This document shows, in pieces, positions 1 through 19,342 of a stretch of 64,000 nt of DNA (its first letter is position 1; each line of letters opens with the position of its first letter). The position numbers and the translations under genes were made by a program. Origin of the DNA: Arabidopsis thaliana. Taxonomy: Eukaryota; Streptophyta; Magnoliopsida; Brassicales; Brassicaceae. The stretch lies in contig NC_003076.8 of NCBI RefSeq assembly GCF_000001735.4, positions 6,076,001-6,140,000 of the forward strand, given 5' to 3'. The notes under the pieces were generated by a model that was not told the origin of the DNA, did no database searches, and saw only the letters and a list, made by a program, of their open reading frames with translations.

Positions 1-2569
1 TGGGGAGAGTCACCAGTTTATAACAACGCATGAGTTCCAATACCTTGAGATTAGTTAACTTACCAATAGATTTGGGGAGTTCCTCGAAACTTTCGCAATG
101 GAAAAGATCCAACACTTGGAGATTCGTGGCATCTCCGATAGAGGAAGGTAGCTTTTTCAAAAGAGAGCAACAGGCAAGTTTCAATCTCTTAAGATTAGTG
201 GCTTTTCCAATAGAGTCGGTGAGCTCTAACAAACCTGAGCAGCTAGAGAGATCTAGTTCCTCGAGATTAGTAGCATTTGAAAGATCTGGAATCTCTTTCA
301 GATCCTTAGAGTGACTCAAATCCATCCGCTTGAGACTTTTTAGCGGCTGTACAAATAAAGGGAACACTCAAGAGTCAAGACAGGTTTATATATCTATTCA
401 AACACTCAAGAGTTAAGAGTTAAGACAGGTTTATCAAAACAAAAGAATCATGATATTTTACCAGGATTTTTTCCCATAGTTTCTCAAAGTTGTTCCCCCG
501 CATGACAAGCTCAACAAGAAAATTTGCGGAGAATTTAGAGGGCCACAATCTCAACGGACAATAGTTCCAATGCAATACTCTGAGCTTACCGGGTAGACAA
601 TTCAGGCCTCGTGGTAAACTCAACTTATCCCCAAAACCCTCATTAACAAATAAAAATTGGAGATTAGTCATCCCATCAAATACCAGTTCATCAATAACTA
701 TTTTTTCCTCTATCTCCGGGACGTTGAGACGTATGCCTAGAATAGACTTAGTGCCCTAAGCAAGAAAAATAATGGGTTAGTCAATTGACAAACGATATTT
801 AGAAACGCAGTCAGCTATAAAGAGATAACTATGAATATATTTACCGCGGTATTGTAGGTGAAAACATCAGAAATGTCGTTAACATCTACTAAAAACTGAC
901 GTTCTCTAGGCTCTTGACTAGATTGGTTACGAACAATTTCGACACCCAGTTGTTGCAGCAAAGAATGCATATTTAGGAAACCCATATCGATAGATATGAG
1001 TGATTTCTGTCTTAGAACATCAAGCCCATGGTCGACATCCAAATCACTCTTACCAAGCCACTGTTTCACATGACCGACTTCATAACCACGAAACAAACAT
1101 GCTATGTGCAGAAAGAGAGCTTGATCTTTACGGCTTAAGGCATCGTAGCTATATCTTAGAGTTTTCTCAATGTCACCGTCAAGGCAAGTCTTTAACCGTG
1201 GTAGTGCATTTTTCCACTCCTCCAGGGACATTCCTTTCAGATAAGATCCCAAAACTTTCAGACCAAGAGGAAGTTCACCCGCAAGTTGTGTAACTTCGCA
1301 AGCAAGGTACTGAAAATCATCATGTGGGAAGTTTTGACCAAAAGCAGAAAGACAGAAGATCTGTAGAGCATCATCCTTACGTGGAAGTCCCACCTCGTAG
1401 ATATAGTCGATATTATGTGCCTTCAAAAGTTTTCGATCTTGTGTTGTGATGATAATCCTACTCCCATAGCCGAACCACCCAGTTTCTTTCGCCATTGCAT
1501 CTAGTTGCTCTAAATGATCCACGTCATCAAGAATGACAAGAACTTTTCGGTCTTTGAGCCAATTCGGCGCCGCATTTAGATTATGAATTACGATATCTTT
1601 TTGGTTTAATATTTCAGACAAAAAGTTCGTTTGTAAGACAATCTTCCTTCGGTCATCATTCATGAACGCAGTTGGCGGTTTCAGACCACTCTCACCGTAG
1701 CAACGTCTCGGGTAGGTTAGTCTGATATCGTCTATAAACGCAGTCAACTGAAAATTTTCAGAGATTTGATCACGTAAAGCTCTTGCAATGGTGGTCTTCC
1801 CAATCCCAGGAGGACCCACTATCCCTATCATTCTCACATCACCAGACTCTAGGCATAACAAGGATTTCATCTTTCTCATATGACGTCCGATTCCAACATA
1901 GCCATCAAAATCTCTCGACATCGTATAGTTCAACTCGTCCAATACATCTTCTGCAATTTTGTCAATCAAGTCTGACTCTTTGCTCCTGAGAATTAAGAGA
2001 GAGAGAGATCAAAGAAGTCACAAACACACGCATAACGGTCAAGGAGATGATAAAACTGATTAGCTAATTGATACAAACCATATGCGATAAACCTCTCCGA
2101 CTATATTCGAGACGTCTATCAACGCTTGCCTCCAACTCTGCTTCACCTCTTCCGTTTTGCCCACACAGGTTGTCTCAAAGGCTATCCCGAAATCTCCGGT
2201 CTGCTTTCTCACATCAGATGGATCCACTTCATAGAAAACGGTCATCACAGTTTGACCAAACTCTTCCCTGCACTTCATAATATTCACCAATTCGTTGAGG
2301 CACCAGGTCGACGAAGCGTAATTCTTTGAGAGCAAGACAATCGCAATCTTTGATACTATAATTGCATCAGAGAGTACAGGACCGATCGAGCTACCTCTCT
2401 TCATCTTAGTATCAACGAATGGAAAAATTCCTTTGCGTTCGAACTCCTTCTGAATATGACTCAGAAAACCTTTGCGTACGTCTTCCCCGCGGAAGCTCAG
2501 GAACACGTGGTGTGTCCAGGTTCGGGTTGGAGTAGATGAAAGAGACGACGAGGCTCGATTAGGTTGCAT
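1..2569 (-). CDS. AT5G18350: TIR-NB-ARC-LRR immune receptor, 3' part cut off by window start
   Basis: Exons deduced from GT-AG sites and reading phase: TIR 2079-2569, NB-ARC 845-1985, linker/first LRR 462-755, LRR exon 346 down to 1, which runs off the window. The TIR domain has the [10 protein letters not shown] box and the S-x-x-Y-A-S-S-x-W-C-L-x-E-L motif carrying the expected NADase Glu. The NB-ARC has P-loop GPPGIGKTT, kinase-2 [25 protein letters not shown]-type GELPLGLK and an MHS variant of the MHD motif. The last exon encodes repeated L-x-x-L-x-L-x-x-C units. Intracellular receptor for pathogen effectors by family. I start it at the ATG at 2567-2569; an open frame runs further 5' to about 2668 but has only a TTG there. 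It is closest in structure to the third TNL of the window (9036-12926). Locus name from memory of gene order. Confidence 0.9.
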
Positions 2570-3037
2570 TTCTTGTTGAGAATTTGAGTTTTCTTTGAAA
2601 AAAGTTTGAAGAAACCAATCGCAACAGAAGCCTAAAATGAGGAATTCATTAGAGAGAAGAATAAGCAAATAGACAAAACTTTCACGCCAACGTCCGATTC
2701 TTTTAACTATTCTTCATTGAAAAATTCAGCGCTGGAAATTCTATGAGAAGATTCAAACACCCTAGATGATGCTAAACATGACTCTTTTAAGAGCATTTTA
2801 ATAATATTTACTCATTCTACCTTGTGGGTAACCAAATATTGTACAAGTACGCCACTAACTTTAAGAGCATTTTACTCTTGGACACATTATATTTATGATT
2901 ACTAAGGCAATGAGACAGTACTTTCCTATAGGCCGCCGAGGTGTAATTTGGCTAGCAAAGATTCAAGTTTTGACATTTCAAAAGGAAAATATTCAAATTA
3001 TAACACATAGTTACCGAAAACAAATGCATCGGTTAAT

Positions 3038-3059
3038 AAATAGGTACCATGAATTACAA

Positions 3060-3093
<34 letters not shown>

Positions 3094-3113
3094 GGTACCA
3101 TGAATTACAACTA
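3038..3113. repeat. Poly(A) tract flanked by a 25-bp direct repeat
   Basis: A 25-base sequence containing TAGGTACCATGAATTACAAC occurs at 3038-3062 and again at 3089-3113. The space between is pure A (about 3063-3091). The layout target repeat / poly(A) / target repeat is what a non-LTR retroposon leaves when reverse transcription stops inside the tail. The A run makes the exact left edge of the second copy ambiguous by a few bases. Confidence 0.65.
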
Positions 3114-3574
3114 CTTAAAACAAACATTTTTACTCCACACAGATCAAACGAACTAAACACAAGAGCTACCCGAATGCAAGATATGTTTAAGGGAAGCAGA
3201 CCTGGAAACTGGTTTGCCTAAGTTTGATTTGTCCAGAAGAAAGATCTTAACCCACATCATGGAGCCGAGGCAACAAGTTCTATGTACAGTGTACACAAGA
3301 GCAAAGACAACTATACTAACAATCTAACATTACACATATAAACACTCAAATTGTTCAAAAGATGTTAAACCAGGGTAAAAACCTCAACTCAAAATCAATG
3401 AATTAACTATTATTTACAGGTCTAAAAACTCGCCTTGTTACTTGTTAGAAGTTATTTGATCAAGTATAGCTCAGTCACAACAAGCCACATCATTCACATA
3501 GACTAAACAACAAGCTCAAACTTGTTGACACAAATGCAGATTATATGCAGTAATTGACATAACAAATGATCAAA

Positions 3575-3645
3575 ACTATGCAAATGTCATACATCTCGGG
3601 ACAAGAAATAAGGAGTAAGAAGACAAGACATTAGATTTAAAATAA
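3575..3645 (-). repeat. Remnant of RPS16 downstream flank
   Basis: The stretch beginning ACTATGCAAATG and continuing through GGGACAAGAAATAA lines up base by base, with scattered changes, with 14017-14085 just 3' of the intact RPS16 gene, and with about 7420-7495 in the RPS16/DRE2 remnant. It is non-coding. It suggests a third copy of the duplicated segment, although only some tens of bases are convincing. Confidence 0.5.
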
Positions 3646-3767
3646 GAACTTGATAGTATAGTTGTCTTTGCTTGGATCAAATTCAGAATTTCTTTTTACA
3701 AAAAAAAAAAACATTTTTATTTTCTTAAGTGGTTTTATCTGGACCATTTCTTTACATATGTTTGAAG

Positions 3768-3878
3768 TCAACAATAATAACGTGCCCAACGTACACGGAT
3801 ATACAAACAATTGTCTATAAGCTATATCTTACAAGAACCTACATTTCAACAATAATAACGTGCCCAACGTACACGGAT
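3768..3878. repeat. 33-bp direct repeat, offset 78 bp
   Basis: The 33 bases starting TCAACAATAATAACGTGCCC and ending ACACGGAT occur exactly at 3768-3800 and 3846-3878. They lie in the 3' flank of the second TNL gene. There is no tail or terminal inverted repeat, so this looks like a local tandem duplication. Confidence 0.85.
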
Positions 3879-4048
3879 TTCATTCTCAGTTTCAGAGATG
3901 TTGAACTATATGGTCTGGAACACTTGCAGTGCCCAAAGATGGGTCCACAGGGGAAAAGTCAAATGATGTCACTTACAATTGTAATGAGCAGGGTTTGAAG
4001 ATGAAACTCCATCTGACTCATCATTATCATGCAATTCTTCACTGATAT

Positions 4049-7027
4049 TTATTTATCGAACCAGATGAAATCATTCTCTATCTTGCTGGAGATTGATCCT
4101 GATGAATTCAGAAAAGGCAGCTTGCAGTGACGTGTAATACAATCTGGAATAGTGTCAATATAGTTGTTCTTGAAATAAAATGGTCGAGGAAGATCAGGGT
4201 TTTGAATGTTTCTCATCTCCATCACCAGATTATGACAGAACCGAGAGCTCTCGAATATCTCTACAGGAAAGCTCACAATATTCTTGCACCCCAAAAAATC
4301 TAGTGTTTTGATATGTTCCAGCGTAGAGATCCCAGAAGAGATGCTTCTTAGCTTCATGCAGCTGTTCATCAATAGTTTATTGAGCTTTGAGAGTTTATCG
4401 ATCCACAAAGGAACTTCTTCGATCTCTGTCCTGCTCAAATCCAACCATTCTATAGTTTTTGGAAGACATGGAAACGTCTTGAGGTTCTTGCAGCCTGACA
4501 TGTCCAATGCTGCCAGACATGGCCAAGACGCGACTGTTGTGGGAATTTCTTCTATTGCAGTTTCTGACAGAGAGAGAAATCCAATCTTCGAAGAAATTTC
4601 TGGAAAACTCTCCAATCGTGAGCATCCATCAAGATTGAGGATGCTAAGGGACTCTAAGTCCATATTGCAGGGGATAATCTCTAGCTTTGAGCAATACTTC
4701 ATGTCAAGAACAACCAATTTGTTGAGGTTCTTGATCGAGGAAGGTAACATCACCAAACTTCCACAATAACTGAGACAGAGTTCCTCGATATTTACCGCTT
4801 TCGAAAGATCAGGAATCTCTTTTAGATTCTCAGACTTACTTAAATCCATCTGCTTTAGACTTCTAAGAGGCTAAAAGAACCCACATGAAACAAAGAAAGA
4901 AAAACAATCAGATAATAATCTTATGCAATTTGAGAAAGGTGAGCTATTAAAATTAGCTTACTTGTGTTCCTTCCCACAGCTTCTCAAGCTGGCTCTCCCT
5001 TATGTTTATCACAACAAGAAACTGTGGACAAAAACTCAGAGGCATTGATGTCATGGGGAATGCATCCCAATGCAGCAGCCTAAGTTTACGGGGTAAATAA
5101 TCCAAGCCTCGAGGTAAATGAAGCTCAGGTTGATCTTTACTCGAAGAGGACTTGTAGAATCTTAGAAACAACAGATTATGCATCCCACCAAAAGCTCTTT
5201 CATTCAGAAACAACTCATTGATCTTAGATATGTCCAAAGATATGCCCAAAACAGCTCCAGTACCCTGAAGCACAAAAATACCAATTGCAAGTATTGTTTA
5301 TGTGCAAGTGTAGTGAACTTACAAATGAAAGTAACGTAGCAAAACATTTGACTTACAGTGTTATCAGCAAGTACATCATAAATCTCTGAAGCATCCATCA
5401 AGAATTGACGTTTGCCAGGCTCGGCAATAGATTGTTCGCAAACAATTTCTCGACCCAATTGTTCTAGCAAATTGTGCATCGTAATAGTACGATTGCATCT
5501 CGATATGTGTATGAGAGACCTACTGGTAAGGACTTGAAGCCCAAATGTGACATCCAAGCCAGAACTTGCAAGTATTTGCTTCACATAATCAACGTTCTCA
5601 CCATTGAATAAACAAGCAATATGAAGGAATATGACCTTATCCTTGTCATGTATACCATCATAACCGACTCGTAAAACATTTCTAATATCCTCATTAAGAC
5701 TGGTTCTGAGTCGAGGCAATGCTGATTTTTGCTCATCTTTGCTCATCCCTCGCAGAGAGGACCCCAAAACCTTTAGAGCTAGGGGAAGATAGCCAGCAAG
5801 CTTTGTTATTTCAGTAGCAAGCTCGATACAACCATCTGGTGCAGAACTCTCTCCAAATGCATATTGGCAGAAAATCTGAAGAGAATCACTTCTAGATGGA
5901 AAACCCAACTCATATATGCAAGTGATCCCATGCGCTCTCAATAGCTGTTTGTTTTCCGTGGTCACAATGATCCTACTTCCAGAACCAAACCACTGAGATT
6001 GTTTCACTAAGGCATCAAGTTGTTCTAGTTTATCAACATCATCAAGAACAACAAGAACTTTCAGATCCTGCAATCTTTCTTTTACCAAACCTAAATCATG
6101 TATCTTCATATGCTTATGATCAATAACTTCAGACAGAAACTGTTCTTGCAAACGCAACTGGAAGCCATAGGCATCGAGCTCCGAGGTCCTAGAACTTCCC
6201 TTAACATTCTCCATAAAAATAGTGTGTTGGAAGTTTTCAGATAGCCGGTTGAATAAAGCTCTGGCAATTGTTGTCTTGCCAATACCTGCAGGACCCCAAA
6301 TCCCCACCATTTTCACTTCAGTTGATTCCAGACATAACAAAGAATCCAGCTCTCTCATATGATTGTCGATTCCAACCAGATTGTAGGAATCTCGTGATAA
6401 TGTAGAATTCAATTCATATGAAATGCTCATAGCAATCTTGTCAATCAGATCTGCTTCATTGTCCCTATCAATAAGAAAAGATTACTCCCACCAAATCATC
6501 AAAGAAACTTATAGCAGAGGCACATCAATAACTAATAACGGAATCAGAACAACTAACCAGTTTTGAGAAGACTCGCCGGCTATATTAGCTATATAGACCA
6601 ATGCTTCTCTCCATTTCTGCTTCACTTCCTCATCTGGTTGTCTTTCACATGCTTCCTCAAACGCCTTTCCAAATTCTCCCGTTCGTTTCCTCACATCAGA
6701 TGGATCCACCTCGTAGAAAACCGGCATGATCATCTGGCTTACTTTCTTTATCTCCACCAACTCATTCAAACACCAGCTTGAAGATGCATAGGTCCGCGAC
6801 AACACTACAACCGCAATCCTAGATTCTCTGATAGCTCGTACAAGCTCAGAACTGATCATTTGGCTTCTCTTGATATCATTATCTATGAAAGTACGGATTC
6901 CCTTACGCCGGAACTCCTTGAGAAGGTGGCTGAGAAAGGTTCTGCGGACATCTTTGCCGCTGAAGCTTGGAAACACATGGTGTCTCCAATTGCAAGACTG
7001 CAATGACAAAGATGAAGATTCTTCCAT
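4049..7027 (-). CDS. AT5G18360: TIR-NB-ARC-LRR immune receptor, 900 aa, short C-terminus
   Basis: Four exons: 6558-7027, 5357-6464, 4962-5264 and 4049-4870; 2703 nt, 900 residues, all phases consistent. TIR is at about residues 15-155. The usual SFRGED box reads SFSGKDVR, but the [14 protein letters not shown] motif with the catalytic Glu is intact. NB-ARC motifs: GPAGIGKTT, LVVLDDVD, GSRIIVTT, GYLPLALK, and MHN in place of MHD. LRRs fill the last two exons. After the IPDCI repeat the protein ends within about 35 residues, so most of the post-LRR C-JID domain seen in the third TNL is absent. Two W-box cores (GGTCAA 7156-7161, TTGACT 7193-7198) lie upstream. Effector-sensing role is by family; I recall this locus as BAR1, linked to recognition of the effector HopB, but am not certain. 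Confidence 0.92.
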
Positions 7028-7323
7028 GAGAGAAGCTGAAAAGTAAGTATAGCTTATAATCCTTCTTTGTTTTTTTGTAAAGTTAAGTTACCACACAGCT
7101 TGAGAGATGATGATACATATCTGGACTTTTGATTGGCTTGTCCTCTTCGGATTTGGGTCAACACTTGAGAATCGCTTTGCGCGTCCAGAAGGTTGACTTT
7201 TTGCCTTATGTTTGCTTCTACCGACACGAGTTTTAGTTTTAGTAGTGGAATCACAACAGCATTTTAGAAATGAAATCCAACAAAAGAGATTAGTTTGAAT
7301 CAAAGTCTAATCAGATATCTGAT
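7028..7323 (-). promoter_or_regulatory. Upstream region of the second TNL gene, with W-box cores
   Basis: About 300 bases between the start codon and the RPS16/DRE2 remnant. It contains W-box cores at 7156-7161 (reverse) and 7193-7198, typical WRKY sites in defence promoters. Bases around 7190-7260 resemble 13,440-13,520 beside the decayed TNL fragment, so this promoter was part of the duplicated segment. No transcription start can be fixed from sequence alone. Confidence 0.5.
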
Positions 7324-8297
7324 CACTAGTTTATAGCTAAGCCACATCAAGTAACAGCTTCTCATAAACTTAACAAACCTAATATTTAGCAGCAGAACAA
7401 TGAGTGAATCAAGCTATTGATAGAACAAAGCAAATGTCATCATACATCATGGGACAAGAACGAAAGAGTGAAAAACACAAGATATTGAAATAAAGATAAC
7501 AACTGTAAGATAGCAAACGAGTAGACATAACAAAACATAAGTTTCTAGGAGAATCACCATTATCCAATAAAGCTGAAAAATATAAATCTAAAGAGTCTCA
7601 CAAGTCCATACTCCAAAAAAAACTTACGATAACTCGAAATTGAAAAACAAAACAAACCAGCTTTTTAACGGCAACTCTTCTGGTAACAAGCACGAGCACC
7701 ACGACCAACAAACTCTTAAGAAGCTTATGCTGCCACATGATGATTGTGGATTCTCGATTTGATCCTCTGTGAGGCCCAGCTTCACAGCTTTTCTCTCGAT
7801 CTCATCTCGACCACAGACACAGTTCTTGCAAGCTTTTTTGGGGGTCTCACAACCGCTGGCTGCAAAAAATGCAAGACATCTTAAACACAAGGGATGTACA
7901 ATGATAAGAAAGATCATGTGGCTGTCTTTAATTACCAGCAGGAACTTGAGGCTTCTTCAAGTCATCCTCCGTTAGCAGAGAATCTTCATCAATAAGATCC
8001 AAGTCATCATCTAGATTATCCTTTAAGAGAAATTTTGCAGGCTTTTTGAGAGCAAATGATGAACCAATCTTCCAAGAATTTTTTTTGCCTTAATCTGCAT
8101 TTGACAACATGTTTCTCTGTTATATGGATGAGCTATAGTGAGAGCATATATGCAAGTTTGGCATATAAGTAGAATGCAGATCTTTCATCCTTCATGTTAA
8201 AGGCCTCATACTAGAAGCAAGACAAGACGTGTAAAACTGCTCACCCCAAAGGATAAAATGAAAGTAGACAGCTTAATTGATTTCAAATCAAGACACT
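7324..8297 (-). pseudogene. Chimeric remnant: RPS16 3' end fused to DRE2 internal exons
   Basis: From about 7324 to 7714 the sequence follows the 3' flank and last codons of RPS16 (compare 13,915-14,305). The codons for VGRGAR-x-x-YQKS-x-R and the stop survive at 7661-7712, with Ser and Arg changed to Ala and Cys and the last Tyr to Cys. At about 7715 homology switches to DRE2 exon 5 (compare 17,240 on), then the exon 5-4 intron, exon 4 with indels, and part of exon 3, ending at about 8297. The DRE2 exon 5 donor reads AT instead of GT, and no start or full frame remains. Relative to the intact locus about 2.9 kb is missing, including the RPS16 body, the PPR gene and DRE2 exons 6-7. Confidence 0.85.
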
Positions 8298-9035
8298 TCA
8301 AGCTGTGGCAGCAATTGCAGTTCTCTACCTTCACTACAAGCTGTTGTAGTCGAGGGAGACATACGTTACAGTGTGGTAGCGCCTTAAATCATTACGGAAC
8401 AAGAACACCAAAATTGGAGAAGTGTAAGCCTTCTCAGGTATGGATATTGTGCATCAAGTTAGAGCCCCACTTGATTGCTGCATCAAGAACACCATCTTGA
8501 TCCCACTGACTTCGACAATAATTTAGACACAATTAGTCTGCGATGATTATATAGACTGAAGAAGAATCAATTAGATTCCATCTTTGGTGGAATTTGAAAT
8601 TGATTAGCCAAAACTAAAGTGTATGCAAAAACAAGAAGAAACGTATAACAACAGCATCACTTATTTTTAAGGAAGCACAATGAATCCGTCCAGTGATCAA
8701 AGTTGAAAGGTAGAGCTAGGCTCTGACATATATAGCACGTACAAAGAAACCACAGAAGAGATACTGCATAAATATAGCACACGGAGACAAAAAAACAGAA
8801 GAGGCTCTGACATGTATTACCTTTACCATCGAAGATTTTGTTTTCACAAAATATAAGTTAGTATTTTACTTTCCATTTCTTATAAAATAGTTTCTAGCTT
8901 CATATATTACCTTTCATATATGCACCAGAGAGGTTTATACAGATGTCACTATTTTTTTTGCTCATCCTCGTTATTGCCAGATTCTTCTCCATCTGGCTGT
9001 CTGCACAACCTCTGCTACTACATCTGAAGCTCTTG
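8298..9035. other. 3' flank of the third TNL, no gene supported
   Basis: No complete gene. On the minus strand, 8298-8520 translates in pieces into residues that look protein-like (a Cys- and Leu-rich stretch and one containing WDQDGVLDAAIKWG) but is interrupted by stops. The rest is AT-rich, with the motif GGCTCTGACAT twice (about 8719 and 8802). The 3' UTR of the third TNL must lie here. Confidence 0.5.
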
Positions 9036-12000
9036 TCAATCGTCTCCATGAGCATGAGGGAGCTCCAAGAGTCGAAGACCACACTCTTTTATCGCCCAAA
9101 AGTAATCGTGAACCTTGAAGTCAAAGACAAGCTCGCTTTCTGCTTCAGGACTGTTGCACTCGCCTAGGGAGAAAGAAGCTTCAAATATATACACATGCTC
9201 TGTATACCTATGCGGAGTTGGTAGAAGGTGCACACTAGATCCATACTGAATAGTGAGGCCATTCTGTTTGCCTTCGACACGACAAGATAACCTCATGGTC
9301 TCCTGTTTGGTATAATCATCGCTATGAGGGTAACTATCATAATCACCATAGACTATGACCTCCTCGTCATAGTCATCATCATCGTCATCATCGTAATCGT
9401 AATTGATTTCATCGTCATTGAACAGCACTAGAGAAGCCTTAAATATCAAATATAGAGGAAGATGCCTCTCTTTCAAATGAATTGTTACGGAATCTCCAAT
9501 AGCTCGATGAATGAAGTATGCAGGAACTTCTCCAGAAGGTAACAGAGCATGTTTGCAAACCGATTTCTGGATGAGTTCTCTTGCTTCTTGATTCAAGTTG
9601 TTGCAGTTTAAAAAATTCAGACGGATATCTGGATTGTGAAAGGAGCCATCTATTGTCTCAAGTGACACACAATTTTCTGCATCTAGAGATGAGAGGCAGT
9701 CTGAAAGTTGCGGCAGCGATACAAGCTTATGGCATCTATAGAACGAAAGCTGATGTAGTTGAGAAAGATTTTTGATGCAATCTGGAATAGTCTTGAATTC
9801 ATTACTGATGAAGTGTAGGGACACTGGGGAAGTATAAACCAACTCTGGCAGACAAATTTGTAACATATCCGACTGTAAAGTCCATTGGTTTGGGAAGTTA
9901 GAGTACCACCTGATGTTTACTATCGAATCACCAGAGACATCCTCATCACCACGAGTAATTTGCAGACAATGAACACCTTCCATCTTGGAAATTCTTGATA
10001 ATGAGATGTTGTCCAGCTTCTTGCATCTGATCATAACGAAGTGTCGAAGCTGAGAGAGATTCTCGACCCACGGAGGAATGTCTTCTATTTCTGTCTCACT
10101 CAAGTTTAGCACTGAAATTCCATCAGGAACAGGTGGAAACATCTTCAGGTTTTTGCACCGCGACATATCTAATTTATCGAGACGAGACCACAACCTGATC
10201 GATGAAGGCACTTCTTCTATCGCTGTACCACTCAGATTGAGTTCTTGGATGTTTGTGGAGATCTCTGGAAAAGTTTTCAACCGTGAGCTTCCGTTCAAAA
10301 GAAGTTTAGACAGAGATCTCATATTGCTGTCGCCAGGAAGAGCACAGGGGAGCTCCACCAAATTTGAGCAAGCACTAAGATTCAATTCTTCGAGACTAGT
10401 GGCATTACAAATACAGGAAGAGAGCTTCACCAGACTTGCGCAACCACCGAGATCCAATTCCTTGAGATTAGTGGTGCCTCTAATAGAGGAAGGAATTTCC
10501 AACAGACTAGTGCAAAAAGAGAGAAGCAATGACTCGAGGTTAGTGGCATTTGAGAGATCTGGAATCTCTTTCAGGTTCCTGGCGTCACCCAGCTCCATCC
10601 TTTTGAGATTTTTAAGTGGCTGTACAACAAAAAGGCACATTTTGTGCGTTTATATCAATGTTTAGACACATAAAAACAGTTTGTTTCAATACAATTATAA
10701 AATTTTACCTGAATTCCTTCCCACAGTTTTTCAAATTTGTTCGCCCGCATGATAAGCTCAACGAGAAACTTTGCAGAGAACTTAGAGGGCCAAATGCTCA
10801 ACGGACAATAGTCCCAACGCAATAACCTGATTTTACGGGGTAGACAATTCAGGCCTAGTGGTAAGTTCAACTTATCCCTCAAACACTCGTCCAATATTAA
10901 AAACTGGAGATTAGTCATCCTATCAAACACCGTTTCTTCTATAACTAATACATCCTCGATCTTAGAGACATGAAGCATTATGCCTAGAATAGTCCCAGTG
11001 CCCTAAGGTATGTCCAAAGCAAGAAAATATCAAGAGTTATTAATTATGATTTAGTTAATAGACAAACAATATTAGAAAGGAAAGAGACAACTGTAAATAT
11101 ACTTACTGTATTGTCGGTGATAACATCAGAAATCTCATTAACGTCAACTAAAAACTGACGTTTTTCAGGCTCTCCAATAGATTGTTTACGGACAATGTCA
11201 ACACCTAGTTGTTGAAGCAAAGAATGCATCCGTACGAGTCCCATATCTGTAGATATGAGAGACTTATTGCTCAAGACTTCAAAGCCATGGTTAACGTCCA
11301 AACTGCTGTTAGCAAGCCACTGTTTCACATGATTAACTTGACAGCCGTTGAACAAACATGCTATATGGAGAAAAAGAGATTTATCTTTATCGCTCAAGAC
11401 ATTGTAGGCAAATCTTAGAGTTTTCTCAATTTCACCGTCAAGGCTAGTCCTTAACCGTGGTAGTGCGTTTTTCCACTCCTCCAAGGACATTCCTCGCAAA
11501 TAAGATCCCAAAACTCTTAGACCTAGAGGAAGTTCACCTGCAAGTGCAGTAAACTCCCGAGCAAGTTTCTTAAAACCATCATATGGGAACTTTTGACCAA
11601 AAGCATACAGACAGAAGATCTGGAGAGCTTCATCTGTAGCAGGGAGGTCCACCTTGTAAACATGGTTGATCTCATGCGCTCTCAAAAGCCTTTGATCTTG
11701 TGTTGTGATGATAATCCTACTTCCATAGCCGAACCACTGAGTTTCTTTCGCCAATGCAGTTAGCTGCTCTAATTGATCGACGCCATCAAGAATGACAAGA
11801 ACTTTGTGGTCCCTGAGCCTCTCCTGAACTGCACCTAAATGACGAACCTGGATATCCTTCTGGTTGAATAACTCAGACAAAAGCCGTCTTTGTAAATTCA
11901 ACTTCCTTTGCCGGTCTCCAGTCATGATCTCAACTGGAAAATCCAAATTACCCTCATCGTGCCAGCCTTTCCAGTAGCTTAGTCTGATGTTCTCTATAAA

Positions 12001-12926
12001 GGCAGAAAACTGGAACTTTTCAGAGATTTGATCATATAAAACTCGTGCAATGGTGGTCTTGCCAATCCCAGGAGGACCCAATATCCCTATCATCCTCACA
12101 TCACTAGACTCTAGGCATAACAAGGAATTGATTCTTGTGATATGAGGACGGATTCCAACATAGTCATCAAAATCCCTCGACGGCGTATAGCTCAAGACGT
12201 CTGATACATCTTTTGCAACTTTCACAATCATGTCCGCTTCTTTATCCCTGAGAATCAAAAGAGAGGTTAAGGAACTCGTAAAAACAGGAAAAATATGAAA
12301 TGCGAGACGAACCATTTGCGAGAATCTTGTCCGAGTATGTTTGCGACGTCCATCAAAGCTCGACTCCATCTCTGCTTCACCTCTTGTGTTTTGCCAACAC
12401 AGGTTTTCTTAAAGGCTTTACCGAAATCTCCGGTCTGTTTTCTCACATCAGATGGATCCACTTGATAGAAAACAGTCATCACCGTTTGACCAATCTCTTC
12501 CCTGCAATTCATAATCTCCACCAATTCGTTGAGGCACCAGCTAGACGAAGCGTAGTTCTTTGAGAGCAAGACAATTGCTATCTTTGATTCTCTAATGGCC
12601 TGAAACAGCCCCGGACCGATCGATTCGCCTCTCTTCATTTCGTCATCAATAAAGGGAACGATTCCTTTGCTTTTGAACTCCTTCTGGATATGACTAAGAA
12701 ACCCTTTCCGTACGTCTTCCCCGCGGAAGCTCGGAAAGACTTGGTGTGTCCAGGTTCGAGATATAGGAGACGAAAGAGATGGAGGAGATGAAAGGGACGA
12801 CGAAGAAGAAGAAGACTCGATTGATGATCTGCATATCTTCAGCTGCAAATTCTTGTGCTTTTTGTAAACCCAATACCAAATTACACAAACAAGTGTGAAG
12901 AAACCAATCACCTCTGCAATAGCCAT
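9036..12926 (-). CDS. DSC2: TIR-NB-ARC-LRR immune receptor with N-terminal anchor and C-JID, 1210 aa
   Basis: Four exons: 12313-12926, 11107-12247, 10709-11002 and 9036-10619; 3633 nt, 1210 residues. Residues about 5-22 ([17 protein letters not shown]) form a hydrophobic segment followed by Lys/His, a likely membrane anchor. A Ser-rich linker leads to TIR (about 58-200) with [10 protein letters not shown] and the catalytic Glu in [14 protein letters not shown]-loop GPPGIGKTT near residue 262, [21 protein letters not shown], and MHS for MHD. Kinase-2 reads LVILDGVD, with Gly for the second Asp. LRRs cover about 690-960; then a post-LRR C-JID region containing an Asp-rich tract (DDDEINYDY-type, coded at about 9364-9415). 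I recall AT5G18370 as DSC2, whose dominant-negative form suppresses camta3 autoimmunity. A W-box core TTGACC is upstream at 13,017. Confidence 0.93.
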
Positions 12927-13080
12927 TGAACGACTACAGTCTGATGGAGAGACAAAGACTTTACCGATATACGTAAAAGAAAAAATGCTAAGCCAACATA
13001 ATCATTACTATTTTCGTTGACCAAAACAATAAAATAAAAAAATCAATACTATTCTTTTACTAACTACTATACTAGCTAGT
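12927..13080 (-). promoter_or_regulatory. Proximal upstream region of DSC2
   Basis: Short AT-rich upstream region between the DSC2 start codon and the decayed TNL fragment. A W-box core TTGACC lies at 13,017-13,022. The upstream space is only about 150 bases before pseudogene sequence begins, so further control sites would lie inside the remnant. Confidence 0.4.
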
Positions 13081-13500
13081 AGCAAGCATCTGCTGCATAG
13101 CGATCTCTGAATGCAAAGTGGCAGAAAATCTGGAGTCACTTCTTCGTCCCATGCCCTTTTTCCGTGGTCACAAACTCAGACTGATCCTACTTCTAGAACC
13201 AAACCACTGAGATTGTTCCGCTGAGGCATCAAGTTGTTCTTAATTTAACATCATCAAGGACAACAATAGTTTTTAGATCCAACACTTTTTTTCTTTTACC
13301 GAACCTAAATCATGTATCTTCTTCATATGTTTACGATCAATAGGGTCAGACAGAAACTCTTCTTTCAAACACAACTTGAAGCCATAGGCCCATATGCATC
13401 GAGTTTTGGAAGTTTTGAGAGAAACATGCAGGACTACTAATGGTTTGACTTTTTGCCTAATGTTTGCTTGAAAATACAAATTATACAATGGAGTTAATAA
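13081..13500 (-). pseudogene. Decayed TIR-NBS-LRR fragment (NB-ARC piece plus upstream piece)
   Basis: Bases 13,120-13,395 align with the NB-ARC exon of the second TNL (about 5855-6180): the segments for RNBS-B (ACAAACTCAGACTGATCCTA against ACAATGATCCTA), kinase-2 and the helix before it are recognisable. Several indels break the frame. At about 13,396 the match jumps to the region upstream of that TNL (about 7190-7260; GGTTTGACTTTTTGCC against GGTTGACTTTTTGCC). The first NB-ARC part, the TIR exon and the LRRs are missing. It is a dead copy of the second TNL lying next to the intact RPS16 gene. Confidence 0.8.
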
Positions 13501-14252
13501 AAGTTTAGAACTTGTGGAATCACAAAAATTACGGTCAGGCAAGAGGTATATGTTTAGGATCAGCAAGTTATTTGATTAACTATCCTTTGATTATTAATCG
13601 AGGCCCTCCAAGCACGATTCCAATTCTAACCTCGATAATCAATAGACAACACAAATTTTGCATTGCAAAGATCAATTTTTGTGAAATCCAAAAGTAAGCA
13701 AGTCAAAGGGAGAAAACTTAAGATATGATTAACAGCACACAGCTAGATTAGGTCAAATGGGAAATCAAAAGATTAAAACAATATATGCTATGTGCTTCAC
13801 TTAGCTTACAGATCAAAACAACATCAAACTAAGCATAACACAACTTCTATTGATCTACTCAGGAGCAAAGACTAACGTTAAGTCCATTTGTTTAACAGAG
13901 ATTTCATCACACTGTAGTTTATAGCTAAGCCACATTAAACAACAGCCTTCTCATAAACTCAACAACACCTAGATTAAGTTTGTATAAGAAACGATTAACC
14001 TAACCTTTGATCGGACTATGCAAATGCCACACATATCAGGACAAGATATAAAGAGTAAATACCGACAAGACAATGAAATAAAAATAAGAAAATAGTAGAC
14101 ATAACAAAACATAAGTTTCTTGGAGAATCACCATAATCCAACAAGCATAATAAAGCAGAAATTATAAAATCTAAAGAGTCTCACAAGTCCATACTCCCAA
14201 AAAAACCTTACGATGATTCCAAATTGAAAAACAAAACACAAACCAGCTTTGT
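13501..14252. other. RPS16 downstream flank
   Basis: Non-coding AT-rich DNA. Its right half (about 13,915-14,252) is the RPS16 3' flank, copied at 7324-7660 and in part at 3575-3645. No gene or RNA structure seen. Confidence 0.6.
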
Positions 14253-14953
<701 letters not shown>

Positions 14954-16333
14954 ATGTTACTCCTTCGTCGTTATTCCGGCGGAAGTCTTTACTCGATCCT
15001 CCCTATCAGAGCCTCTATTGAATCTACTATTCGTCATTTCAACAGCCTCGAGCCTTTGCAAAGCTCTGATTCGACTCCAACTAAAGGCGATTACTTCGCC
15101 GCGATCAACCACGTTGTCAATATCGTCCGCCGCGAGATTCACCCGGAGAGATCATTGAACAGTCTCCGTCTACCTGTAACCTCCGAATTCGTGTTCAGAG
15201 TCCTCCGCGCAACTTCTCGTTCCTCCAACGATTCTCTCCGATTCTTCAATTGGGCTCGATCGAACCCTAGCTACACACCAACCTCCATGGAATATGAAGA
15301 GCTTGCTAAGTCCTTAGCTTCACATAAAAAATACGAATCGATGTGGAAGATCCTCAAACAGATGAAGGATTTGTCTCTCGACATCTCCGGTGAGACACTC
15401 TGCTTCATCATTGAGCAATACGGTAAGAACGGTCATGTAGATCAAGCCGTAGAGCTTTTCAACGGCGTCCCGAAGACTCTAGGATGTCAACAAACCGTTG
15501 ATGTTTACAATTCCTTGCTCCATGCGCTTTGTGATGTGAAGATGTTCCATGGTGCTTATGCTTTGATTCGGCGAATGATTAGGAAAGGTCTCAAGCCTGA
15601 TAAGCGGACATACGCTATCTTGGTTAACGGATGGTGTTCCGCTGGAAAAATGAAGGAGGCTCAAGAGTTTCTTGATGAAATGAGTAGGAGAGGGTTTAAT
15701 CCACCGGCTCGTGGTCGTGATTTGCTTATTGAAGGTTTGTTGAATGCTGGTTACTTGGAATCTGCTAAAGAGATGGTGAGTAAGATGACCAAAGGAGGGT
15801 TTGTTCCTGATATTCAAACTTTTAATATTTTGATTGAAGCTATATCTAAATCAGGGGAAGTTGAATTTTGCATTGAGATGTATTATACAGCTTGCAAGTT
15901 AGGTCTTTGTGTAGATATTGATACTTACAAGACACTAATACCTGCGGTTTCAAAGATTGGAAAGATTGATGAAGCGTTTCGGTTGTTGAACAATTGTGTG
16001 GAAGATGGGCATAAGCCGTTTCCGAGTTTGTATGCTCCGATAATCAAAGGAATGTGTAGGAATGGGATGTTTGATGATGCATTTAGCTTTTTTAGTGACA
16101 TGAAGGTGAAGGCTCATCCGCCTAACAGGCCGGTTTATACAATGCTGATTACAATGTGTGGTCGTGGTGGGAAATTTGTGGATGCGGCTAATTACTTGGT
16201 TGAGATGACAGAGATGGGTTTGGTTCCGATATCACGGTGCTTTGATATGGTTACTGATGGGTTGAAGAATGGCGGGAAGCATGATTTGGCTATGCGAATA
16301 GAGCAGTTGGAAGTTCAGCTTAGAGGAGTTTGA
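14954..16333 (+). CDS. AT5G18390: P-class pentatricopeptide repeat protein, 459 aa
   Basis: Intronless, as usual for PPR genes. The N-terminus (MLLLRRYSGGSLYS) is basic and Ser-rich without acidic residues, the look of a mitochondrial targeting peptide. About nine degenerate 35-residue helical repeats follow from about residue 110, for example the TYAILVNGWCSAGKMKEAQ and TFNILIEAISKSGEVEF types. There is no E or DYW extension, so RNA stabilisation or processing in an organelle is the likely role rather than editing. It shares its promoter region with RPS16 and is convergent with DRE2. A copy of this gene is missing from the duplicated segment at 7324-8297. Confidence 0.93.
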   Translation: MLLLRRYSGGSLYSILPIRASIESTIRHFNSLEPLQSSDSTPTKGDYFAAINHVVNIVRREIHPERSLNSLRLPVTSEFVFRVLRATSRSSNDSLRFFNWARSNPSYTPTSMEYEELAKSLASHKKYESMWKILKQMKDLSLDISGETLCFIIEQYGKNGHVDQAVELFNGVPKTLGCQQTVDVYNSLLHALCDVKMFHGAYALIRRMIRKGLKPDKRTYAILVNGWCSAGKMKEAQEFLDEMSRRGFNPPARGRDLLIEGLLNAGYLESAKEMVSKMTKGGFVPDIQTFNILIEAISKSGEVEFCIEMYYTACKLGLCVDIDTYKTLIPAVSKIGKIDEAFRLLNNCVEDGHKPFPSLYAPIIKGMCRNGMFDDAFSFFSDMKVKAHPPNRPVYTMLITMCGRGGKFVDAANYLVEMTEMGLVPISRCFDMVTDGLKNGGKHDLAMRIEQLEVQLRGV

Positions 16334-16954
16334 TACTGCTAAGAAAGGCTTTTGAGGCTTCTCCTAAACTCGGATACTTGGGATTCTGTAGAAATTCAGC
16401 TACTTCTCCATTGATCTACCCTGTATATCTTGTAGTCGAAGCTTGTCTAACTGTTGGTTAGGTTATACTTCGGTTTGGGGGTTGAGTTTAGTTGGTCTCC
16501 TGACTAGTTTCTTTCCAGGGAAAGTGGCGAGAAACATTTTGTTGTACTACTGTTTTTTTTATAGATCCATCTGTCAGATCAAATTTACGTATTGTGCTTT
16601 TCGTACAGATTACGACAGATGAATCTTCAGAGCTCACATTACCAAAGAAACAGTGATGCACATAATACAAGCTCTGATGTTAATGCATTGATTCGTTTGC
16701 AAAACTAAGGTCCAAGCCAGACAGAGAAATAATTATTTAACCAATGCAAAACCGTTCTTCATTGATACTAAGGTGTGTGCTTTGTGGGCAACCCAAACAA
16801 TATTCTACAAGCTTTTAGAGCCACAAAATAAAAGAAGTACCAACAAACAAATTATACGAAAGGGCACAAAGTAAATGATGAAACTACTCTGCGATTAGCA
16901 AAAGGTTTTGGCCTCGGCGAGAAACACCCATGTATGAAGATGCCTTTCACATGC
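16334..16954. other. Convergent 3' region between PPR gene and DRE2
   Basis: About 620 bases between the two stop codons hold both 3' UTRs. I see no other gene; short open frames here have no family character. Confidence 0.6.
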
Positions 16955-18876
16955 TTATATGTCAGCTTCAAGGAAGTTTTGAGATAGGGTTACCTAAAGA
17001 GGAAGAAAAGTTACATGAATAAGGTGTATTCTTAAAAGGATTAACAAGACTTTACAATGGTGATAGATATAAAGGATTCAGTTACCTTCTCGCCTAATTT
17101 GAAGGGTGGCAGACCCTTGTAAGGGCATGTACCGCAGCGGAAGGCATCACCGAGCCCACACTGAAAGAATTGTTTAAGAAATTTTCAGTCTTGTGGAACC
17201 AAAAATCCAATGCATACTGAGAAAGAGATGGGTAAAGAAGCTTACGCTGCCGCATGATGATTGTGGATTCTCGATTTGATCCTCTGTGAGGCCCAGCTTC
17301 ACAGCTTTCTCCTCAATTTCAGCTCTACCACAGACGCAGTTCTTGCAAGCTTTTTTAGTGGTCTCACAACCGCTGGCTGCAAAAGATGCAAGATATCTTA
17401 AACACAAGGAATGATATAAGGATAACAAAGATCATGTGGCTGTCTTTAATTACCAACAGGAAGCTGTGGCTTCATCAAGTCCTCCTCTGTTAAAAGAGAA
17501 TCTTCATCAATAAGATCCACGTCGTCATCTAGATCAATCTTAAAGAGATTTGTTACAGGCTTTTTGAGAGCAAATGATGAACCAATCTTCCAAGAAGGTT
17601 TCTTTGCCTTAATCTGCATTTGACAACATGATTAACTGTTATATGATGAGACAAAGTGAGAGTATATATGCAAGTTTGACAGATAAGTAGAATGAAGATC
17701 TTTTATCCTTCATGTTAAAGGCCTAGAATAAGCCTGAACCGAAAAAGCAAGCTTATATTCTTATTTCCGTTCAAGAAAAAACGTTTCCTCATACTAAAAG
17801 AAAGAGAAGATAGACAGGACGTGTAAAAGTGCTCACCCCAAAGGATAAACTGAACGTAGACAATTTAATTGATTTCAAATCAAGACACTGTGGCTCAAGA
17901 AAACCAGCCAATGTCACTCTCCTTTGAATGGTCTGCAAGGAAGACGCCATAAGATTAATAAAGAAAAGTTCAAAGACACCCCATTATACATAGACTAGAT
18001 ACACGACACAAACCTGTTGAATTTCTCCCGTTTCACCCTCCAAAACTTTGCACACAGAAACCGTGCCGCCAGGCTTCAAGATTCTTGAGAACTCACCACA
18101 TATTTTATCACTTGGGAAATCAGATGTTTTGGAAATGGCTAATACCGCCTCCACAGAGGAAGCATCCAAAGGAAACTGATCTGCAAAAATAATCAATAGT
18201 CCAACATAAAGAGAAGAGGACACAAAAGAATATCCCACAGCATGTCGTCTTCAAGTGTTCTCACCCTACAAAATTGCTCATCTCTCCATATACAGACACG
18301 AATCTTCCTATCTACATACACACCAGACTAACCATACTACAAGCTTAACTAAAGCAGTCTAACAACTATTTCATAACCTGAGCTAAAAAAAAAAATCGGA
18401 GAACAATTAGGAACAGAGATTTACTTATTGTGGATGCTTGAGTAATAATCAGAGGATCAAAACTCTCAATCACTTCCTTTCCAAGCTCTTTCATTATAGC
18501 TAAAACAGAGCTAACAGGTAACACCACATCATCCGTCACAGCCAAAACAGTCTTCTGATTCATCATCGAATCCTACAAACCAAAAAACCCAAAAACATTA
18601 AAAGACTAAACTTTGAAAATAAAATCCACAGATCATCAAGCTACAAACACAAAAAGCTAACAACTTTTATTGCTTTTTACAACCTAAAGAAGCAATTTTT
18701 TTCTCCCGAAGCTCTTATGACATGCAAATGAATCAAGAGAAACAAATAATCGATTCGCGCAACCCAACACAAGGCTAAAAAGTTTAGAGATACACAAAAA
18801 CAGAAATCGATCTGAGGAACAACAAACAATCAGAAAATAAAATTGAAGATAGACAACAGAAACATTAACTTACCAT
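16955..18876 (-). CDS. DRE2: DRE2 / CIAPIN1 homologue, cytosolic Fe-S assembly protein, 272 aa
   Basis: Eight coding exons: 18874-18876, 18425-18572, 18014-18180, 17837-17932, 17454-17613, 17246-17376, 17086-17160 and 16955-16993. The first carries only the ATG, which sits directly against a GT donor; the next exon continues GAT TCG ATG ATG, giving M-D-S-M-M-N. The N-terminal half is a methyltransferase-like fold without obvious catalysis. The C-terminal half has the two Fe-S motifs: a Cys cluster with CKNCVC, and twin CX2C motifs (CGSC...CGTC) split by an intron. It ends SQNFLEADI. By family it works with the diflavin reductase TAH18/ATR3 to pass electrons in cytosolic Fe-S assembly. A broken copy of exons 3-5 is at 7722-8297. 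Confidence 0.95.
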
Positions 18877-19342
18877 AATGGAGAAATCTATGTAAAACCT
18901 CGCGAGATACTCAAAAACCCTAAAAATATATATATAGCTGTGTAAATTGTTTGCCTTTGAAGAGGAATAAGAAAAATCAAATCTTCTGACCTTTGTCTCT
19001 CTCGCTGGCTTTTTTATATCTTTTTCGCCGACTCTTTCCTTTTCCTTGGTTCTGCTATAACGCGGTTTGGTCAAACCGGGTTTACGTAGAGAAATCAGGA
19101 AAAAAAAAAAAAACGGGTTACCCGATTGTTTATTGTGTTTTTTAAAACGGGTTCGGATCCAAAAGTAATAGATACGGCCCATTTAGACACACGGGCTTAG
19201 TGCCCATTTTAATATGAAAAAAAAAAAAAAACTACTTTTAAGAAAAAAAACGTTAACTACTGTATTTTGTAACATAAATAAAAGGTATATATATATGACA
19301 TTGTGACACTATCTCATATTAATAACTTCTAAGGAAAACAAA
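18877..19342. other. Divergent upstream region of DRE2 and the first defensin-like gene
   Basis: Holds the DRE2 5' leader and the first defensin-like promoter. Two A runs (about 19,099 and 19,217) are present. From about 19,258 the sequence (TTTTGTAACATAAATAAAAG then TATATATATGACA) recurs at about 20,693 upstream of the second defensin-like gene. Confidence 0.6.

Follow-up and report, generated by a model that had tools for sequence, protein, structure and literature searches.

Does an immune-receptor cluster grow by copying a whole neighborhood at once, and are the housekeeping genes caught up in it then lost through selection on their dosage? These questions are raised by an array of TIR-NB-ARC-LRR (TNL) receptor genes on chromosome 5 of Arabidopsis thaliana (∼6.076–6.095 Mb), in which sequences related to TNL-A, TNL-B, RPS16, and DRE2 occur twice. 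The array belongs to the window analyzed here, the 64,000-nucleotide stretch 6,076,001–6,140,000 of the chromosome within the 119.7-Mb genome. Coordinates are window positions, negative values lying left of the window start, and all sequence comparisons were made within one genome, the A. thaliana reference. A preliminary description of this DNA proposed one duplication of the whole unit followed by pruning of dosage-sensitive genes to a single copy. We favor, at a probability of roughly 55%, a cluster built in at least two layers, first an old pair of TNL-A genes and later a duplicated TNL-B-to-DRE2 segment. The losses can be explained by ordinary decay of linked passengers, with no need to invoke selection on dosage.

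The array runs B0 (remnant), A1, B1, RPS16/DRE2 (remnants), A2, B2 (remnant), RPS16, a pentatricopeptide repeat (PPR) gene, and DRE2, where A and B denote TNL-A and TNL-B. Its parts in the window are as follows.

1..2569, minus strand: 5′ part of TNL-A1, the gene running on left of the window; TIR PF01582 (6e-49), NB-ARC PF00931 (4e-22); end from the preliminary description.
3442..3652, no strand assigned: old remnant of RPS16 3′ flank type, 5′ of TNL-A1; 3465-3648 matches 13920-14090 (E 3e-19).
3705..7087, minus strand: TNL-B1 and downstream sequence; TIR (6e-50), NB-ARC (2e-20), LRR.
7305..7714, minus strand: copy 1 RPS16 remnant (3′ flank, final 15 residues, and stop); matches 13890-14302.
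7718..8297, minus strand: what copy 1 keeps of DRE2 (exons 5 and 6 and a portion of exon 4); 89–91% identical to 17235-17889.
8298..9054, no strand assigned: spacer linking the DRE2 break with TNL-A2, unmatched in the flank left of TNL-A1.
9036..12926 (presumed ends), minus strand: TNL-A2; TIR (4e-55), NB-ARC (1e-19), LRR.
13074..13469, minus strand: TNL-B2 remnant (NB-ARC exon pieces and a 25-base scrap of 5′ flank), from sequence matches; stops in frames.
14253..14693, minus strand: intact RPS16C coding sequence of 146 residues (3′ flank 13890-14252); ribosomal S9/S16 PF00380 (3.6e-37).
14861..16333, plus strand: PPR gene (open frame), located between RPS16 and DRE2 in copy 2 only; PPR families, best 3.5e-49.
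16955..18876, minus strand: intact DRE2 of 8 exons and 272 residues; GT-AG spliced model without internal stop.

We take TNL-A1 to be AT5G18350, TNL-B1 AT5G18360, and TNL-A2 AT5G18370 (DSC2); RPS16C is presumably AT5G18380, the PPR gene AT5G18390, and DRE2 AT5G18400. The exon frames of A1, A2, and B1 match TIR, NB-ARC, and LRR families in that order, and “intact” for these genes denotes long open exons and their presumed annotation rather than full spliced models. DRE2 gave no Pfam match in the three frames searched separately, its identity resting on the eight-exon spliced model and its presumed correspondence to AT5G18400.

Self-comparison recovered the repeated order on the same strand, flanks included, much as the preliminary description had claimed, with RPS16 represented by its 3′ end. 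TNL-A matches at 74-2545 versus 10347-12779 (76%) and continues left of the window at -1227..-1046 versus 9055-9228 and -990..-93 versus 9385-10285. TNL-B matches at 5820-5893 versus 13074-13143 and 5952-6172 versus 13158-13389 (the latter 83%), with two scraps at 6211-6241 versus 13390-13420 (E 0.05) and 7193-7217 versus 13445-13469 (E 1e-4). The RPS16 3′ flank follows at 7305-7714 versus 13890-14302 (78% over 7312-7714 versus 13896-14302), and DRE2 at 7718-8206 versus 17235-17724 (89%) and 8213-8297 versus 17805-17889 (91%). TNL-B1 shows only family-level likeness (63–68%) to TNL-A2 and other TNLs, the copy pairs listed being closer. When 7090-9030 was compared with 12930-19000, matches with E ≤ 1e-4 occurred in none of 200 dinucleotide shuffles, nor in any of 22 stretches of equal length (1.94 kb) taken elsewhere in the window; the real stretch scored 636, 305, 118, and 41.9 bits against 32.8 bits for the best shuffle. 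This control spans the RPS16–DRE2 part, the TNL parts resting on BLAST E-values. The duplication is real, and for the RPS16–DRE2 part above chance; it is segmental, since several genes share both order and strand and noncoding sequence is included. Retroposition would entail intron loss, yet copy 1 of DRE2 retains intron 5/6 and most of intron 4/5. Because introns and flanks match, duplication took place at the DNA level, as previously proposed.

The two copies have lost different parts. In copy 1, the RPS16 remnant is joined directly to DRE2 exon 6 at a single junction (7714/7718) that lacks 2,932 bp (14303-17234 in copy-2 coordinates), a gap that covers DRE2 exons 7-8, the PPR gene, and all but the 3′ end of RPS16. 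Of the eight DRE2 exons, copy 1 keeps 5 and 6 and a portion of exon 4, inside which it breaks off sharply; a gap of one base causes a frameshift in exon 5, and intron 4/5 lacks 65 and 9 bases. DNA comparison found no match to DRE2 exons 1-3 in copy 1, which may have been truncated from birth. The account of a dead RPS16 gene in copy 1 needs correction: what copy 1 holds of RPS16 is confined to the 3′ flank and the final 15 residues with the stop, not a decayed gene. In copy 2, TNL-B persists as pieces within 13074-13469, stretches equivalent to ∼2620-5820 and 6241-7193 being lost (the ends of these gaps are set by short matches), and 13074-13420 has stops in all three frames. That copy 2 TNL-B is dead while RPS16 and DRE2 are intact (146- and 272-residue models) agrees with the preliminary description, as does its view that duplication of a TNL neighborhood carried parts of housekeeping neighbors along. 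It overlooked the PPR gene in copy 2, the old flank at 3442-3652, and a TNL-B remnant at -2283..-1654. A second direct repeat lies directly upstream of DRE2 (19263-19399/20691-20837, 75%; 20155-20349/21467-21652, 86%).

The paired parts are not equally diverged. Synonymous divergence (Ks) of the TNL-A pair is 0.41±0.05 for the NB exon, 0.51±0.09 for the TIR, and 0.35±0.09 for the LRR exon; the overall Kimura two-parameter distance (K2P) is 0.325±0.012 (954/3647, all sites), and raw proportions agree between synonymous sites (0.327) and columns around introns (0.316, 60/190). The DRE2 pair has K2P values of 0.113±0.019 in exons and 0.101±0.022 in introns (58/579 or 0.100 at all sites), and the TNL-B pair 0.136±0.027 (27/219 or 0.123 at all sites). 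TNL-A at synonymous sites differs from DRE2 (p=3e-19) and TNL-B (p=7e-9), both at all sites, the TNL-A pair being ∼3 times as diverged; DRE2 and TNL-B agree (p=0.37). The RPS16 flank pair has a K2P of 0.219±0.028, made up of a 3′ untranslated region (3′UTR) half at 0.13±0.03 and a TNL-B promoter half at 0.32±0.05. A single clean duplication predicts equal neutral divergence in all pairs and is therefore unlikely given 0.327 against 0.100 and 0.123. The proposal of one clean duplication of the whole unit is not supported by this comparison.

To account for the observed matches, order, junctions, and unequal divergence, we infer the following succession of events. The TNL-A genes A1 and A2 would have formed an old tandem pair adjacent to RPS16. 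A stretch extending from TNL-B across RPS16 as far as DRE2 exon 4 would have been copied much later, probably by unequal or ectopic recombination, with one copy landing between A1 and A2 and adjoining the older RPS16-type flank. Loss of 2.93 kb from the copy between A1 and A2 would have removed the PPR gene along with DRE2 exons 7-8 and the bulk of RPS16, its counterpart would have lost most of TNL-B, and copy 1 of DRE2 would never have had a 5′ end. Dosage pruning is not needed in this history, given that the loss of several genes can be traced to one junction, that DRE2 copy 1 could have been incomplete from the outset, and that intact RPS16 genes number three or more. In the available portion of a published table of Brassica rapa counterparts, AT5G18350 corresponds to Bra002154 and Bra006452 and AT5G18370 to Bra002153, with none given for AT5G18360 (PMC4008172). 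This fits an old A pair and a young B segment, since AT5G18360 alone lacks a counterpart there.

Several points weigh against a two-layer history. The age test compares unlike classes of sites, synonymous for TNL-A and all for DRE2 and TNL-B, and TNL-B2 contributes only 219 well-aligned bases. The promoter half of the RPS16 flank (7305-7506 vs. 13890-14080; K 0.32±0.05, 48/184) is TNL-A-like yet flanked by young parts, a value that better suits a mosaic from conversion or from diverged haplotypes. No empty site between A1 and A2 was identifiable, the spacer 8298-9054 having no match on the left flank. The B. rapa counterparts were taken from the published table, not from sequence comparison here, and the B. 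oleracea table, in the portion available, lists none of AT5G18350, AT5G18360, and AT5G18370 and is hence uninformative (PMC4008172).

Further layers are visible around TNL-A1. The RPS16-type flank at 3442-3652, 5′ of this gene, stands at K2P 0.42–0.45 from three other flanks. The B0 remnant of the TNL-B 3′ region (-2283..-1654, left of the window) matches parts of 3705-4968 and is young relative to B1 (K 0.08–0.13), its match starting at base 3705, 53 bases right of the old flank. Beside B0 lies a young repeat (-2965..-2413) with copies 94–96% identical. In an NB-ARC tree of 20 sequences, a partial sampling of ∼100 TNL matches, A1 groups with A2 as its sister (bootstrap 100) and B1 is placed in a different TNL lineage, although backbone support near B1 is weak (45–84); these separate lineages rule out TNL-A and TNL-B as mutual copies. 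For the origin of the spacer 8298-9054, comparison with the left flank, chromosomes 2 and 3, the 18.85-Mb cluster described below, and 17000-64000 gave only weak matches of 43–127 bases. Spacer positions 8558-8681 weakly resemble sequence at the 5′ end of a chromosome 3 TNL (E 2e-4), and the plus-strand open reading frame 8201-8500 matched no Pfam family. We take AT5G18350 to end near -1931; if so, its extra 3′ part would overlap the TNL-B0 LRR remnant (-1859..-1654), and the TNL-A1 annotation may be a chimera. The available part of a published gene table gives AT5G18350 as 4,500 bp with 6 exons and AT5G18370 as 3,890 bp with 4 exons (PMC4008172).

Relatives of the array occur elsewhere in the genome. 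Chromosome 2 carries a collinear, reversed segment (3,781,222-3,794,600) with two PUB-like stretches (PUB47- and PUB48-like by position), a TNL-B 5′ end (84%), and an intact RPS16A. The PUB48-like stretch is broken, each of the three frames read containing stops; in the TNL fragment the best frame has one stop, and the PUB47-like match consists of overlapping pieces. About 8.5 kb between the PUB-like stretches (3,785,522-3,793,987) is unaccounted for and is perhaps an insertion. Divergence from chromosome 5 is 0.08 in the PUB48 part, 0.16 in the PUB47 part, 0.135 in the RPS16 5′ flank, and 0.18 in the TNL-B TIR, with Ks 0.073±0.028 and nonsynonymous divergence (Ka) 0.003 in the RPS16 coding sequence; the RPS16 3′ flank stands at 0.22 in its 3′UTR half and 0.45–0.48 in its promoter half, divergence thus being highest in the TNL zone. 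With 3442-3652 as outgroup, informative sites for the parentage of the chromosome 2 copy group copies 1 and 2 at six positions, copy 1 with chromosome 2 at four, and copy 2 with chromosome 2 at four. A further RPS16-like match of 110 bases lies at 3,673,320 on chromosome 2.

Frames of 146 residues are intact in RPS16A on chromosome 2 and RPS16B on chromosome 3, giving at least three intact copies including that on chromosome 5. RPS16B lies beside two TNLs in a collinear chromosome 3 segment (1.106–1.114 Mb; RPS16C–RPS16B Ks 0.67), and chromosome 5 and 3 positions pair at -25k/1068k, 14k/1113k (RPS16B), 34k/1134k, and 58k/1154k (104 kb vs. 90 kb compared), a relationship that we take to reflect the alpha whole-genome duplication. 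A TNL–RPS16 linkage predating this duplication finds no support here; the positions agree, but neither of the two chromosome 3 TNLs is sister to A or B in the 20-sequence tree, which samples the TNL matches in part. On chromosome 5 itself, a DRE2 fragment (18,847,960-18,848,645; K 0.08–0.14) lies between TNLs of a second cluster at 18.85 Mb, presumably RPS6/VICTR. It is ruled out as a copy of copy 1, since it contains exons 3 and 8 and a portion of exon 7, all absent from copy 1, and has no exons 5-6. We tentatively suggest that the TNL neighborhood has been a repeated donor, with pieces from PUB47 to DRE2 copied within the array, to chromosome 2, and to the 18.85-Mb cluster at similar times (K ∼0.08–0.16 outside the TNL zone) and the exported RPS16A surviving as a working ribosomal protein gene. 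If true, the instability of immune clusters would supply the genome with additional copies of housekeeping genes.

Next to a history in two or more layers, the best alternative, which we nonetheless regard as unlikely, is one unequal exchange between long-diverged haplotypes that placed the old alleles A1 and A2 in tandem and brought with them TNL-B, RPS16, and DRE2 sequences of lower divergence. It explains both age classes with one event because divergence before the event would have varied along the haplotypes. Patchy divergence, including the high promoter half, would follow directly, a sharp break inside DRE2 exon 4 is what an exchange junction might leave, and divergence of the chromosome 2 copy follows a comparable course, rising from 0.08 in the PUB48 part to 0.18–0.48 in the TNL zone. 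However, the alleles would have had to stand ∼0.2–0.3 apart at synonymous sites beforehand, which is extreme, and the flank left of TNL-A1 contains nothing that matches the spacer 8298-9054.

Gene conversion between tandem copies is common, and one segmental duplication of the whole unit, later partially homogenized within its TNL-B, RPS16 3′UTR, and DRE2 portions, would yield order and strand from one event and could leave patchy divergence. Conversion must then have hit a truncated DRE2 and a TNL-B remnant yet spared the long TNL-A genes, and the similarly low divergences of the B0–B1 pair and the 18.85-Mb DRE2 fragment (K 0.08–0.14) also speak against it, making this history improbable. Least credible is the preliminary description's own version, one clean duplication with selection then reducing dosage-sensitive RPS16 and DRE2 to one copy, which we disfavor strongly. 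The same order is seen twice, as it predicts, and a DNA search with 16400-19000 returned only DRE2 itself and two fragments, although a diverged paralogue would escape such a search. Against it stand the differing divergences of the pairs (p=3e-19), the intact RPS16 genes on chromosomes 2 and 3, the single junction that removes most of RPS16, the PPR gene, and part of DRE2 jointly, and the missing trace of DRE2 exons 1-3.

Passenger fragments of slowly evolving genes act here as clocks inside a fast-evolving immune cluster, setting the old TNL-A pair apart from a younger rearrangement where receptor sequences alone would blur both. The chromosome 2 copy supplies a structural context for the origin of RPS16A and suggests that neighbors of immune receptors can be exported and survive. 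The locus also advises caution before the loss of a passenger gene is attributed to dosage selection.

Plant nucleotide-binding leucine-rich repeat receptor (NLR) clusters grow by tandem and segmental duplication with passenger genes. The present array resembles this general pattern in that TNLs multiply by DNA-level duplication and carried neighbors decay, and differs in that passenger fragments separate two age classes and related fragments lie at two other loci. Among open-licence PMC papers, none of the titles and abstract openings listed concerned this duplication, which does not prove absence, and the available part of PMC11093987 does not mention genes of this locus. RPS16A (At2g09990) has been described, in the accessible part of the study, as a new duplicate of RPS16C (At5g18380) that is specific to the A. 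thaliana lineage and differs in expression (PMC3756979). The Ka of 0.0029 in Table 4 of that source agrees with our 0.003, but the pairs of that table are classed as tandem or dispersed duplicates, whereas here the collinearity extends further, into PUB-like and TNL-B sequence around the gene. The AtPUB46-48 tandem triplet (PMC5225562) corresponds, by gene numbers and order, to the PUB genes left of this TNL cluster, although the part of that paper available does not mention the chromosome 2 PUB-like copies. The process itself is of a known kind, and this locus is a well-preserved example of it.

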